Below, in pieces: positions 29,106 through 33,036 of a stretch of DNA of 64,000 bases; the first letter of the stretch is position 1; each line of letters starts with the position of its first letter. Position numbers and translations under genes: made by a program. Source of the DNA: Thermoflavifilum sp. (lineage in GTDB: Bacteria > Bacteroidota > Bacteroidia > Chitinophagales > Chitinophagaceae); contig NZ_CP063141.1 of assembly GCF_014961315.1 (NCBI RefSeq), positions 1,798,001-1,862,000 of the forward strand, in the 5' to 3' direction. Under the pieces are notes generated by a model, which was given only the letters and a program-made list of their open reading frames with translations, did no database searches and was not told the origin of the DNA.

Positions 29106-30230
29106 ATGACTTCATCTATCGCCCCTCGCGCAGTTTTGCTGTTAGAAGACGGCACCCTTTATTACGGCAAGGCTTCTGGTAAAATTGGTACCACCTCAGG
29201 AGAAATTTGCTTCAACACAGGCATGACAGGCTACCAGGAGGTGTTCACCGATCCTTCCTACACCGGACAGATTCTGGTGATGAATAATTGTTATATTGGA
29301 AATTATGGTGCTAAGTCGGATGAAGTAGAATCGAATTCCATAAAAATCAGAGGCCTGATTTGCAAAAATATATCCCATTTTTATTCAAGAGCACTGGCCG
29401 ATGCTTCACTCGAGCAATATTTACTAGAAAACGGACTGGTAGCCATTCATCAGGTAGATACCCGTGCACTTGTGATTCATATCCGCAACAAAGGTGCGAT
29501 GAATGCGGTGATATCTTCCGAAACAGATGATCTGAACTATTTGCAGGAGGTATTACGGAACACACCACGGATGGAAGGGCTTGACCTTTCATTAGAGGCT
29601 TCTACCGAACGAGCTTATACGATGGGAGACCCGAGCTATGGTGTGCGAATTGCTGTTATTGATTACGGTGTAAAACGCCATATTCTTCAATGTCTGGTCG
29701 ATCGCGGAGCTTATTTAAAAGTTTTCCCCCCACGTGTTTCTTTACAGGAATGCGAAGATTTTCAGCCCGATGGATATTTTGTTTCCAATGGGCCCGGCGA
29801 TCCCGCAGCTATGCCCCATGCCGTGCAACTGGTTAAACAAATTTTAAGCACGCGAAAACCCTTTTTCGGTATTTGTTTGGGCCATCAACTGCTGGCTTTA
29901 GCTAACGATATTCCCACTTACAAAATGCATCACGGTCACAGAGGCTTAAACCATCCGGTCAAGAACCTGATTACCAATCGCAGCGAAATTACCACGCAAA
30001 ATCATGGATTTGCTGTGGATGCCGAGTCCTTACGTCGATCAGACATTATGGAAATTACCCACATTAATTTAAACGATGGTTCTATTGAGGGGATGCGTAT
30101 GAAATATCAACCCGCATTTTCCGTTCAATATCACCCAGAATCCACGCCAGGCCCGCATGACTCCAGGTATCTGTTTGACGACTTCATCAGGCAGGTGAAA
30201 ATGCATCAAAACCTCCCGGTGAACGCTTGA
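29106..30230 (+). CDS. carA: Carbamoyl-phosphate synthase small (glutaminase) subunit
   Basis: 374 residues. N-terminal CarA domain (GTTSGEICFNTGMTGYQEV), then a class I glutamine amidotransferase domain. Catalytic Cys is in FFGICLGHQL and the His/Glu pair in SVQYHPESTPGP. It supplies ammonia from glutamine to the large subunit for pyrimidine and arginine synthesis. carB is not adjacent; a convergent intergenic region follows. Confidence 0.98.
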   Translation: MTSSIAPRAVLLLEDGTLYYGKASGKIGTTSGEICFNTGMTGYQEVFTDPSYTGQILVMNNCYIGNYGAKSDEVESNSIKIRGLICKNISHFYSRALADASLEQYLLENGLVAIHQVDTRALVIHIRNKGAMNAVISSETDDLNYLQEVLRNTPRMEGLDLSLEASTERAYTMGDPSYGVRIAVIDYGVKRHILQCLVDRGAYLKVFPPRVSLQECEDFQPDGYFVSNGPGDPAAMPHAVQLVKQILSTRKPFFGICLGHQLLALANDIPTYKMHHGHRGLNHPVKNLITNRSEITTQNHGFAVDAESLRRSDIMEITHINLNDGSIEGMRMKYQPAFSVQYHPESTPGPHDSRYLFDDFIRQVKMHQNLPVNA

Positions 30231-30256
30231 AAAAAGAAATTTTTTTTGATTAAGGC

Positions 30257-30288
30257 TTTGTTAAATTCAAAAAAATCTCGTATACTTG
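30257..30288 (+). promoter_or_regulatory. Promoter of candidate small RNA
   Basis: TTTG (30257-30260), a 20-nt spacer, TATACTTG (30281-30288), one mismatch from TAnnTTTG with the same spacing as the rpsL and rpsJ promoters. Confidence 0.55.
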
Positions 30289-30293
30289 CCTCT

Positions 30294-30407
30294 ACAAAAA
30301 AGAAATGTCCCCTAGACAGGGGACATCTGATGCACAGTTAGGTAACTCCTTATTACCCACTACCATTTTCAAGCACCATATTTGCAAGTATGGTGCCAAT
30401 TTTTTTT
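30294..30407 (+). ncRNA. Candidate small RNA, about 115 nt
   Basis: Begins a few bases after a well-spaced promoter. It contains a perfect 9-bp hairpin ATGTCCCCT-AGAC-AGGGGACAT (30305-30326) and a small hairpin GGTAA-N7-TTACC (30341-30357). It ends with a strong terminator: GCACCATA / TATGGTGC (30373-30396), then CAA and eight T. I cannot assign it to 6S, SRP, tmRNA or RNase P RNA by sequence. The ATG inside the first hairpin opens a 52-codon frame that I consider accidental. The opposite strand could also be transcribed, ending at the first hairpin. Confidence 0.5.
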
Positions 30408-30555
30408 ATATCACTCCCTTAATTTTCAAAGCTCAGTTTTTATCTTACTCCCTGATTCCTTGAGTATCACGCTGCAAAGTTAGTTTATTCCCGGTTTTGT
30501 TTCATGCTCACGTTTCAAGTTTTACATACAATTAATAAATCGTTTTCGCTGAAAA

Positions 30556-30705
30556 AATATTAAATAAAATTATATCTATTTTTTATTATCGCAAATTAAT
30601 CATAAAAATTGATTTGAAAAAATTTTTTTGAATTATTGAGCAAATATACTCATTTTTTTATAAATATTGTGTCATAATACATCAAATATAATTTTATTTA
30701 ATATT
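30556..30705. repeat. 150-bp element bounded by perfect 20-bp inverted repeats
   Basis: The 20 bases at 30556-30575 are the exact reverse complement of 30686-30705. Both arms are pure A/T. The 110-bp interior is AT-rich with small internal dyads (for example TGAG-N8-CTCA near 30641). The right arm covers the last codons and stop of the M28 peptidase gene. It may act as a hairpin terminator between convergent genes or be a relic of a MITE; no target duplication is obvious. Confidence 0.6.
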
Positions 30706-32949
30706 ACATAGTTTGTCAATCAGGCTGGCTAATCTTTGCAAAGCGGATGCTTCTTGCTGAATTTGTTGTTGGGCTTCCTGCCAGTTCTCCTGTTCGATAG
30801 CTTCCCGGGCTCCAGGAAGCGTTTTCACGCCATAACCCGTATATAAGCCGGGCGCGTAAATCGTGTGTTGATACCATGGCCGGTGGGGTAGTCCATTTGG
30901 ATCAAGCAGGCATTGTTCGCTGTGTAGCAGCAAATCATTCAGCTGGTCAAGGGCCTGAGGTGAAAATTGGTCAATTTTCTGGGTGTGGACCGCATAAGCT
31001 CGACTCAGGGTGTCTAACCGACTGATTGCATTTAACAATGGACTAAAATCCAGATAAGGCACGGGATGCTTTTCTGTCGGTGGACTGAAATGGAGTCGGG
31101 GATCGATGGAAAGTGTGTAAATTTTATCGTTTATCCACTGGTTTACTGTGGTGGCTGTATCTCTTTTTTGTTCTACGAGCTTTTGCAATTGGTGGACATA
31201 CGATTTCACCGTTTCGGTAAAATGGGTAAAATCAAACGGTAGCAGCTCGCAGTCGGCCAGTCTGAGCAAGCATCTGCCCATCGTTTTGCTCAAGGTGATC
31301 CCATAGCTGAAGGCTGAATCCTTAAAACGAATATAGTTGGGATAGGTATCGTATAGGGTATGGTATTCGCCACCCTCGTCCTCTCCGCCGTATCCCACGT
31401 TTACGGAAGCGATACCCGCATGCTGTAAGAAGGGGGAATAATCGGATCCCGAACCCAGTGCGCTGATATGTACAAACCGGGAGCCATCCAGTGTGGGGGC
31501 GTTATTCCCTTCTCGGCTGATGATGCGGGCTCTGAGGCGTGCCACCACGTTGGTATCTGTTTCCGGATCGGGTACACTCAGGGCCACTTCGTTAAAAAAT
31601 TTTTCCAGGGTATGGGAGCCACCTACACCCAGAAAGCCGCGGCCATTGCCATCACTATTCAGGTATGCAACTGCTTTTTGTTGCAATTCCTGTAGATGAT
31701 CTTCCACCCATTCGGTTGAACCAAGCAAGCCCTGCTCTTCGCCGTCCCAGGCGCAGAAGACAATCGTTCGCGCGGGTTGCCAGCCTTGCTGATGCAATGT
31801 GGCGAGGGCTTTTGCTTCGGCCAGCATAGCCACCTGTCCGCTGATGGGATCTGCAGCTCCGTGTACCCAGGCGTCATAATGATTGCCACGGATGATCCAT
31901 TGATCGGGATGGGATTGCCCCGGCATTCTGGCAATTACGTCGTAACAGGGTACCAGATCCCACTTGAATTTTAGTTTCAAATGCACCCTCGCTGGACCTG
32001 CTCCCAGGTGATAGGTGATGGGCAGTGCGCCCCGCCAGGATGCAGGAACCACAGGCCCGCCAAGCGCTTCCAGCAGGGGTTGGGCATCCTGATAGGAAAT
32101 GGGTAGCGTGGGAATTTTCGTAAAAACTTTTACCTGATCGAGGCTTAATCGTTTTGCTTGTGGAGTGGCAGCTACTCCCGGGGTGAGGGGATCGCCCGAA
32201 TAAACAGGCATATCCATCACTGAGCCTCGCTGTACACCCCATGGGTTCTTAAAGGGTCCGGTCGGGTAGGTATCACCCTGATAATAACCGTCATCCGCAG
32301 GATCGGAATAGATAATACATCCAATAGCACCGTGCTCTGCAGCAACTTTGGGCTTTATCCCCCGCCAGGAATGGCCATATCGTGCGATAACAATTTTGCC
32401 TTTTACATCAATTCCATACCGGGCAAGCATTTCATAATCTTCCGGCAGTCCGTAATTCACATATACCAGTTCTCCGCTGACATCTCCATCTACGGAGTAG
32501 GCATTATATGGGGGTAATGCTTCCTGGATTTGTTGGGTATAGGGGTCATTAGCTACAGGTTTTTCCTGTAAAGAAGCCGTGTAATGATGAGGAGCTATTA
32601 ACTCCAGCTGGCGTACCTGAGGTGTAGGGAAAAGTACTTCGTAGGTATCGATTCGTGTTTCGTAGCCCCAGGAGCGAAACAGAGAATCCAGAAATAGTGT
32701 GTTACGATGATCGTAAACTGAGCCCAGATGGTGCGGATGGGCCGACAGGCGTTTCATCCAGTTATCTAAGTCGCCTGGTTGAAGCAGGCGATCGAATTGT
32801 TGTTCGAGCTGTTGTTCGGCTACAGCATGGGATGGAGTGAAGCCCATGATTTGGACAGATGAGGAAGCAGATTGGGCGAAACCAGGATAGCATCTAAGGA
32901 AAACAAATAAAAAGCCCAAAACCGGGCTGAATCTGCGAAAGGCATACAT
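30694..32949 (-). CDS. M28-family zinc metallopeptidase, glutamate carboxypeptidase II-like, secreted
   Basis: 751 residues from the ATG at 32947-32949 (MYAFRRFSPVLGFLFVFLRCYPGFAQ is a clear signal peptide; the frame is open 12 codons further). Order: PA-like insert (ELVYVNYG... GIDVKGKIVIARYGHSWRG), peptidase domain with zinc ligands in GNHYDAWVHGAADPISG and WDGEEQGLLGSTEW and a later His in EYHTLYDTYP, then a C-terminal TfR-like dimerisation domain. The family removes C-terminal acidic residues from peptides outside the cytoplasm. All metal ligands are present. The aminotransferase lies 87 bp upstream on the same strand. Confidence 0.93.
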   Translation of the reverse strand: MYAFRRFSPVLGFLFVFLRCYPGFAQSASSSVQIMGFTPSHAVAEQQLEQQFDRLLQPGDLDNWMKRLSAHPHHLGSVYDHRNTLFLDSLFRSWGYETRIDTYEVLFPTPQVRQLELIAPHHYTASLQEKPVANDPYTQQIQEALPPYNAYSVDGDVSGELVYVNYGLPEDYEMLARYGIDVKGKIVIARYGHSWRGIKPKVAAEHGAIGCIIYSDPADDGYYQGDTYPTGPFKNPWGVQRGSVMDMPVYSGDPLTPGVAATPQAKRLSLDQVKVFTKIPTLPISYQDAQPLLEALGGPVVPASWRGALPITYHLGAGPARVHLKLKFKWDLVPCYDVIARMPGQSHPDQWIIRGNHYDAWVHGAADPISGQVAMLAEAKALATLHQQGWQPARTIVFCAWDGEEQGLLGSTEWVEDHLQELQQKAVAYLNSDGNGRGFLGVGGSHTLEKFFNEVALSVPDPETDTNVVARLRARIISREGNNAPTLDGSRFVHISALGSGSDYSPFLQHAGIASVNVGYGGEDEGGEYHTLYDTYPNYIRFKDSAFSYGITLSKTMGRCLLRLADCELLPFDFTHFTETVKSYVHQLQKLVEQKRDTATTVNQWINDKIYTLSIDPRLHFSPPTEKHPVPYLDFSPLLNAISRLDTLSRAYAVHTQKIDQFSPQALDQLNDLLLHSEQCLLDPNGLPHRPWYQHTIYAPGLYTGYGVKTLPGAREAIEQENWQEAQQQIQQEASALQRLASLIDKLCNIK

Positions 32950-33036
32950 GGTGCTTAGATTTTGTTTCACGAAAATATCATGCACTTAGAGGAAATGCAA
33001 GTAGAATTTGCAAGAATGGGGGAACAATCAGCCAGT

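Follow-up and report, generated by a model that had tools for sequence, protein, structure and literature searches.

Opposed putative small RNA units downstream of carA in Thermoflavifilum: a candidate antisense regulator of sigma-factor gene starts and its putative cis-encoded antagonist

Organization of the locus

The genes carA (29106-30230, plus strand; Pfam CPSase small chain and GATase) and an M28-peptidase-like gene (30694-32985, minus strand) converge in the 2.83 Mb, single-contig genome of Thermoflavifilum sp. (family Chitinophagaceae; G000 in what follows), and the element with which we are concerned sits in the spacer between them. Coordinates are those of the window, i.e. the whole 64,000-nucleotide stretch of DNA that was analysed, unless another sequence is named. 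Along the plus strand, two promoter-like boxes (30256-30289; -33 box TTTG at 30257-30260 and -7 box TATACTTG at 30281-30288, invariant in four of four genomes) precede hairpin 1 (30305-30326; nine pairs, ATGTCCCCT/AGGGGACAT), hairpin 2 (30339-30359), and hairpin 3 with its T-run (30373-30407; stem 30373-30396, eight T at 30400-30407), the last of these being the plus terminator. From these boxes, hairpins, and terminator we infer a plus RNA of ~114 nt (30295-30408). Facing it on the minus strand is the -7 box TAACTTTG (30475-30482; TAAnTTTGC in four of four genomes), accompanied at the carA locus by a weak -33 box (2 of 4). A minus RNA of ~173 nt would run from this box at about 30468 to its terminator at about 30296; hairpin 3 would form its 5' hairpin, hairpin 2 would present AAGGAG in the apical loop (CUCCUU on plus), and hairpin 1 would serve as terminator stem, followed by the U-run CTTTTTTG (30295-30302), whose A-rich plus-side counterpart is kept in all four genomes. 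Additionally, a 22-bp block, AAGTTTTACATACAATTAATAA (30517-30538), lies 34 bp upstream of the minus -7 box, is identical in all four genomes, and is possibly an activator site or a piece of another element.

A sequence-only reading of the window had described a candidate small RNA here with signs of an antisense transcript converging on it, and its two promoter-like boxes, two hairpins, and two T-runs are all found where it placed them. Likewise, a terminator scan of 29901-31000 returned exactly the two terminators that it had described, one per strand (shuffle mean 0.9).

How much weight can such signals bear? The spacer holds three promoter sites scoring at least 9/10, where 300 dinucleotide shuffles average 0.90 and 59% of them carry at least one such site, and it holds two perfect TAnnTTTG strings against 0.94 expected; a promoter call from the strings alone was rejected, as these counts are about those of an A+T-rich spacer. 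Folding is better than in shuffles on both strands (plus z -4.45, minus z -3.36). What lifts the feature above chance is its conservation in four Thermoflavifilum genomes rather than its promoter strings. As for its family, 6S and Flavo-1 had been suggested, and an Rfam scan of the whole window on both strands returned no family at gathering score, these two included; at relaxed E, the locus gave Qrr (RF00378; 18.7 bits against a gathering score of 50, E 0.69) and two further chance-level matches.

Conservation within and beyond the genus

In a DNA search of 59 relatives, strong matches to the locus were confined to three further Thermoflavifilum genomes (G001, G002, and G003). Across the four (G000-G003), 58 consecutive bases (30324-30381) are identical, far above most flanks, and the four-way alignment holds further invariant runs at 30256-30268 (the plus -33 box), 30281-30289 (the plus -7 box), 30309-30322, and 30385-30405, which is the terminator half with six T. 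The sequence between the plus boxes varies (spacer of 20 in G000 and 19 in the other three), hairpin 3 keeps its stem arms around a variable loop, and the minus -7 box TAAnTTTGC is kept within otherwise poorly conserved sequence. The boxes and terminators of both strands are thus retained in four of four genomes, and the conservation of the hairpins downstream of carA, which had been proposed as a check on the element, is borne out in this genus. A covariance model (R1), built from seven copies comprising the carA copies and the paralogues described below, recovered no RNA copy in a fifth Thermoflavifilum genome, G004, which is 89% complete, whose carA match spans residues 1-70 only, and in which the DUF2490 gene that adjoins the paralogue was not found.

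Beyond the genus, the same model found no convincing relative in 394 family and 395 phylum genomes, sets that overlap partly and were searched with stricter filters that lose weak matches. The best matches beyond G000-G003 had E-values of 1e-4 to 1e-2 per genome; 15 were aligned, the coding context was checked for three, and we treat the weak matches outside the genus as chance. Of the three, L039 lies inside a MutS-like frame and L040 inside a SusC-like frame, and both were rejected as chance; L065, taken as chance as well, lies in no listed frame of at least 70 codons but within a short one read from the opposite strand. By eye, that short frame, opposite the match at L065:1501-1561 (minus), resembles a leader peptide with a GG motif and a Cys-rich tail. 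An exact-pattern scan of a species-genome collection, which may omit records very near G000, gave three sites in two Thermoflavifilum records (T. thermophilum DSM 14807 and a Thermoflavifilum bin), as well as one site in a Dehalococcoidia bin, inside a thrS-like frame. Inspected by eye, 26 post-carA loci from other genera (330 bases each) held no similar element. The gene downstream of carA varies among these genera (L078-L103), with enolase-like and dehydroquinase-like starts recognizable by eye.

A second copy and the strand of the shared unit

The core, consisting of hairpin 1, the linker, and hairpin 2, occurs a second time in G000 (G000:C1:2059068-2059130) and has counterparts at the corresponding position in G001 and G002, flanked by a short-chain dehydrogenase gene and a DUF2490 gene. 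A role for this paralogue as cis leader to the DUF2490 gene is made less likely by G003, where the same two neighbours stand ~60 nt apart without the insert. In all three paralogues, the best promoter match (9-10/10) lies on the minus strand facing the core, 121-124 nt from box to core (98-110 nt in the four carA copies), and no plus promoter match of at least 9 occurs among the five best sites listed for each. Hairpin 3 and the plus terminator were not seen in the paralogue, which is without a plus unit, and in G001 and G002 its hairpin 1 is followed by a weak U-run. As a side observation made by eye, two similar promoter-like strings flank the paralogue on the minus strand of L029 (~1178-1218 and 905-945), one ahead of the RNA and the other ahead of the DUF2490 gene, which would suit insertion of the unit together with a promoter, or a duplication of the promoter.

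The aligned cores also speak to the strand. The RNAalifold consensus is -23.64 kcal/mol on minus and -17.25 on plus. Among the seven sequences, hairpin 1 has two pairs with compensatory changes (A-U/U-A and U-A/C-G), which fit both strands, and the stem of hairpin 2 differs between the carA copy and the paralogue, with the loop sequence retained. Three one-sided stem differences would be G-C/G-U on the minus strand and A.C if read on plus, which is suggestive, not decisive, for the minus strand. The shared unit is therefore best read on the minus strand, from about 30468 to 30296, because the promoter match of the paralogue is strong only there and the stem changes are of the G-C/G-U kind there. 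The plus unit at carA has its own conserved boxes and terminator, and we accordingly retain both RNAs.

Complementarity to sigma-factor gene starts

Within its invariant core, the minus RNA is antisense, via three adjoining seeds, to the starts of an RpoD-like gene and of seven groups of ECF sigma-factor genes. Seed 1 (30355-30364, minus; GGUAGUGGGU) is antisense to ACCCACTACC, seed 2 (30341-30354, minus; AAUAAGGAGUUACC) to GGTAACTCCTTATT, and seed 3 (30328-30340, minus; UAACUGUGCAUCA) to TGATGCACAGTTA. The conserved complementarity to several messages encoded elsewhere that characterizes trans-acting, base-pairing small RNAs is found here. All eight target groups, A to H, match sigma-70 models: group A, which we call RpoD-like, scores below the curated cut-offs of the RpoD models and above that of the general sigma-70 model, and groups B to H are ECF sigmas of the TIGR02985 type, above cut-off. 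The genomes carry 16 to 18 sigma genes each, and not every target group is present in every genome (D was seen only in G001 and G002, and F only in G002).

Sites for seed 1, i.e. ACCCACTACC or G-U-compatible variants of it 0-14 nt upstream of the ATG, belong to groups A, B, C, D, E, and F, and to group G in G000 and G004. Seed 2 finds GGTAACTCCTTATT upstream of the ATG of ECF group H, with all 14 bases exact in G001 and G002 and 9-11 bases in G000, G003, and G004. Seed 3 has a 13-base exact match across the start codon of ECF group G in four genomes (G001-G004), and together with the AAGGAG loop it matches ATGATGCACAGTTACTCCTT at group G in G001, G002, and G003. With accessibility costs left out, predicted duplex energies go as low as about -40 kcal/mol in group G and -36 in group H. 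Exact matches of at least nine bases cover core positions 2-40 of 42 nt in G001 and G002, and this coverage has gaps in G000, G003, and G004.

How exceptional are these strings? Exact ACCCACTACCA sites number 36 in the five Thermoflavifilum genomes, against 31 for a reversed control string that was used for the count only; their number is therefore ordinary, and it is their position, classified for the 36, that is unusual. Seven are the RNA copies, and 14 of the other 29 stand 0-14 nt before a sigma ATG (three in G000, four in G001, five in G002, none in G003, and two in G004), group F (ACCCACTACCC) being outside this 11-mer count. None of the three non-RNA exact sites in G003 is at a sigma start, where that genome has variants only. 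Three of the 29 precede a gene that we take, from its translation, to be fucosidase-like. For the region of seed 3, GATGCACARTT has nine sites in G000 against one for its reversed control; two are the RNA copies and one is the ECF group G start, in a gene whose leader also holds TTTACCCACTACCAT, and five of the other six lie in frames of more than 150 codons.

Several side observations accompany these sites. The gene presumed to be fucosidase-like has ACCCACTACC directly before its ATG (L134 in G004, L145 in G002, and L160 in G001) and is a candidate non-sigma target. G000 has two RpoD-like genes (G000:C1:562168 and 198052), of which the one starting MSMRQLKITKS has the motif. In ECF group G (L147-L151), ACCCACTACC or a G-U variant is in the leader only in G000 and G004, and G001-G003 alone retain CTCCTT downstream of the start codon, a distribution in which a swap of seeds between genomes is possible.

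Enrichment at sigma-factor starts was assessed with start regions from -40 to +30 and the longest exact match to the core of either copy. In G000, a run of nine or more bases identical to the element is present at 6 of 17 sigma starts and at 3 of 257 background starts (Fisher 1.7e-6), a background drawn from 364 kb of G000 that includes the RpoD-like gene and group E; one of its three matches is the RpoD-like gene itself, and one of the six sigma matches (G000:C1:1400491) is to the paralogue, falls within the coding start, and concerns a gene outside the target groups. The reverse complement of the core gives a longest match of at most 7. Among the five genomes, 29 of 85 sigma genes have a 9-mer match, a count never reached by 2000 shuffles of the element, and the 5 of 17 seen in G000 with the carA copy alone was reached once in 2000. 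The 85 are those with a usable start region among 88 sigma records (84 PF04542 matches and four group G orthologues), three having been dropped for a missing start codon or missing upstream sequence. Tests on whole distributions are modest (p 0.036 for longest match, p 0.003 for duplex energy) because 10 of the 17 sigma genes of G000 show at most six bases. All of these figures come from start codons picked by rule rather than annotation in both the sigma and the background sets, from counts in which orthologues and paralogues are non-independent, and from the same genomes in which the sigma hypothesis arose.

Is the arrangement peculiar to the genus? Among 30 loci listed from other genera, none has ACCCACTACC followed by ATG at a gene start by the criterion set; one, L262, missed it narrowly, with a 243-codon frame that is open 54 codons upstream. 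The 25 rpoD-type leaders from outside the genus that were found among 30 loci have 3 to 6 mismatches to the motif with one exception, L297, where the single mismatch would not pair by G-U. Raw counts of ACCCACTACC plus ATG were rejected as a genus marker, as they do not set the genus apart (2 in G000, 6 in G001, 7 in G002, 0 in G003, and 3 in G004, against 6 and 7 in G168 and G238 of other genera).

Proposed mechanism

We think it probable, on the strength of these comparisons of sequence, that the locus encodes a genus-specific, trans-acting antisense small RNA on the minus strand together with a cis-encoded antagonist on the plus strand. In cells, seed 1 would pair with ACCCACUACC just before the AUG of the RpoD-like message and of several ECF sigma messages. 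A different ECF sigma message would be bound by seed 2, at GGUAACUCCUU ahead of its AUG, and yet another by seed 3 and the AAGGAG loop jointly, over AUGAUGCACAGUUACUCCUU; the candidate contact sites in the leaders are ACCCACUACC, GGUAACUCC, and the group G start. Duplexes at or beside the start codon would obstruct the 30S subunit, and less sigma factor would be made. Bacteroidota are said to make little use of Shine-Dalgarno pairing. The RNA of the paralogue would have the same targets, and the plus RNA would titrate or destroy the minus RNA by duplex formation, a role suggested for it because its sequence is the full complement of the minus RNA and is similar to that of the messages. We therefore regard it as probably a cis-encoded antagonist at the carA locus.

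The sequence-only reading fits the anatomy and the conservation in proposing a small RNA and an antisense RNA that converges on it. Its emphasis on the plus strand is probably reversed, because it is the minus unit that has a paralogue, the better consensus fold, and complementarity to messages.

The predicted folding of the minus RNA raises a difficulty. At 37 C, the mean unpaired probability is 0.84 for the AAGGAG loop and 0.18 for seed 1, and in the fold predicted at 70 C the outer stem is open and most of the GUGGGU of seed 1 remains in hairpin 2. That seed 1 is largely paired in the predicted fold counts against the proposed pairing.

Substitution patterns and alternative explanations

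If the minus RNA does pair with sigma messages, changes at the target sites should respect that pairing. At the seed-1 sites of groups A to E (20 genes), nine of nine substitutions keep G-U pairing with the minus RNA, an outcome whose chance ranges from 2e-5 (pairing probability 0.30, changes alike) to 0.01 (pairing probability 0.60, two thirds transitions). A further G-U-compatible change is found in group G of G004, and group H, outside this count, has at least one that misfits (GATAAC in G003). The group G message reads CACAAUU in G000 and CACAGUU in G001-G004, and, of the seven RNA copies, only the G000 paralogue has the matching C-to-U change and reads AAUUGUG; this double change is a single event.

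Could the same resemblance arise in another way? One alternative makes the plus RNA the functional product, a decoy of sigma leaders that titrates a protein recognizing ACCCACUACC and related starts, much as CsrB titrates CsrA. Its promoter boxes and terminator are conserved, it carries the sense sequence of the leaders, and decoy and antisense functions predict the same sharing of sequence. Nevertheless, a single protein would have to recognize three different adjoining core sequences, the nine substitutions just described obey the G-U rules of pairing with the minus RNA, the five best promoter sites listed for each of the three paralogues include no plus match of at least 9, and the stem changes favour minus; we consider the decoy unlikely. 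A second alternative, to which we give about as little credit, is that the leader strings were inherited among sigma genes, or that an ECF start was copied into the carA spacer, with no regulation involved and with the core kept for some other RNA function. ECF sigma genes are indeed paralogues, there is a resemblance between the core and the ECF group G start, and one rpoD leader of another genus (L297) comes within one mismatch of the motif. Common descent sits poorly, however, with leaders of groups A to E that are unlike each other outside the motif, with a motif common to RpoD-like and fucosidase-like genes, which are not ECF paralogues, and with different sigma groups matching different parts of the core.

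The remaining alternatives fare worse. A cis-antisense pair with a local role only, acting for example on the carA 3' end or on the M28 peptidase transcript, would suit two units that overlap lengthwise between convergent genes, but we hold it to be quite improbable in view of a core duplicated away from carA, a plus unit with its own terminator, and the 26 other-genus loci in which no counterpart after carA was seen by eye. A small protein gene, with an ATG at 30305 after an A-rich stretch and a plus frame of 52 codons (34 in three relatives) that is open in four of four genomes, is the least credible of all: between the four genomes, differences fall in 5 of the first 34 codons, all nonsynonymous and none synonymous, so that the synonymous excess by which plus coding potential was judged is lacking, 58 bases are invariant at every codon position, and the paralogue's frame is, by eye, shifted by a one-base gap.

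Relation to known systems

The preferred reading, an antisense RNA on minus with a cis-encoded antagonist on plus, has partial counterparts in the literature, described here from the portions of the cited papers that were consulted. In layout, the nearest appears to be CJnc190/CJnc180 of Campylobacter jejuni, likewise two overlapping RNAs on opposite strands of one locus, where CJnc190 represses a message in trans at its ribosome-binding site, CJnc180 is its cis-encoded antagonist, and RNase III processing is a feature (PMC8687705). That system differs from ours in belonging to another phylum and in having one target, ptmG, whereas many sigma messages are predicted here (PMC8687705). The enterobacterial SdsR/SraC (RyeB/RyeA) are also an overlapping antisense pair of which one acts in trans (PMC8687705), and they differ from the Thermoflavifilum pair in targets and phylum. 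In target, StsR of Rhodobacter sphaeroides seems nearest: it pairs near the start of the rpoE message and lowers it, and other sigma messages rise in the mutant (PMC8307010). A small RNA that acts on a sigma message is in this respect already known. The consulted portion of its description, however, shows one direct sigma target for StsR and an association with Hfq, and mentions no antisense partner and no seed common to a primary-type and many ECF sigmas (PMC8307010).

In phylum and in start-region seeds, GibS and the FopS family of Bacteroides thetaiotaomicron appear nearest; these small RNAs have short seeds, FopS is multi-copy, and the two seeds of GibS bind translation initiation regions (PMC11697453), the kind of site also proposed here. 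Different genes are described as their targets, a glycoside hydrolase 13 enzyme being one, and the R1 seed lies at the 5' end (PMC11697453), whereas the Thermoflavifilum seeds adjoin the 3' hairpin. FopS is said to have been deposited in Rfam (PMC11697453), which gave no match at the Thermoflavifilum locus. Two further papers, PMC9723704 and PMC6237742, were not taken as comparison systems, rpoD serving in the consulted text of the latter as a normaliser only. Judged by titles and abstract openings, the open-access papers listed on the subject reported no RNA with adjoining seeds for the starts of a primary-type and many ECF sigmas, and judged by title, none of those listed on Thermoflavifilum concerned a small RNA. 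We file the minus RNA as a base-pairing small RNA of a new family, the systems likened to it having been compared in sequence via Rfam only.

Outlook

The proposed minus RNA is antisense to sigma-factor starts and may therefore affect which genes RNA polymerase reads. More tentatively, and as a model that may well need revision, we can picture the locus as a valve: the three seeds would curb the primary-type and several FecI-like ECF sigma factors, the second copy would co-evolve with one target, and the antisense partner would release the brake in response to some presumed signal. The prediction is concrete, with named start codons, named bases, and one natural compensatory change. Bacteroidota are a phylum with many ECF sigmas, and the pairing described here would render post-transcriptional sigma balance directly testable in such a setting. 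If the model holds true, a single locus in Thermoflavifilum would set the sharing of RNA polymerase among its sigma factors.
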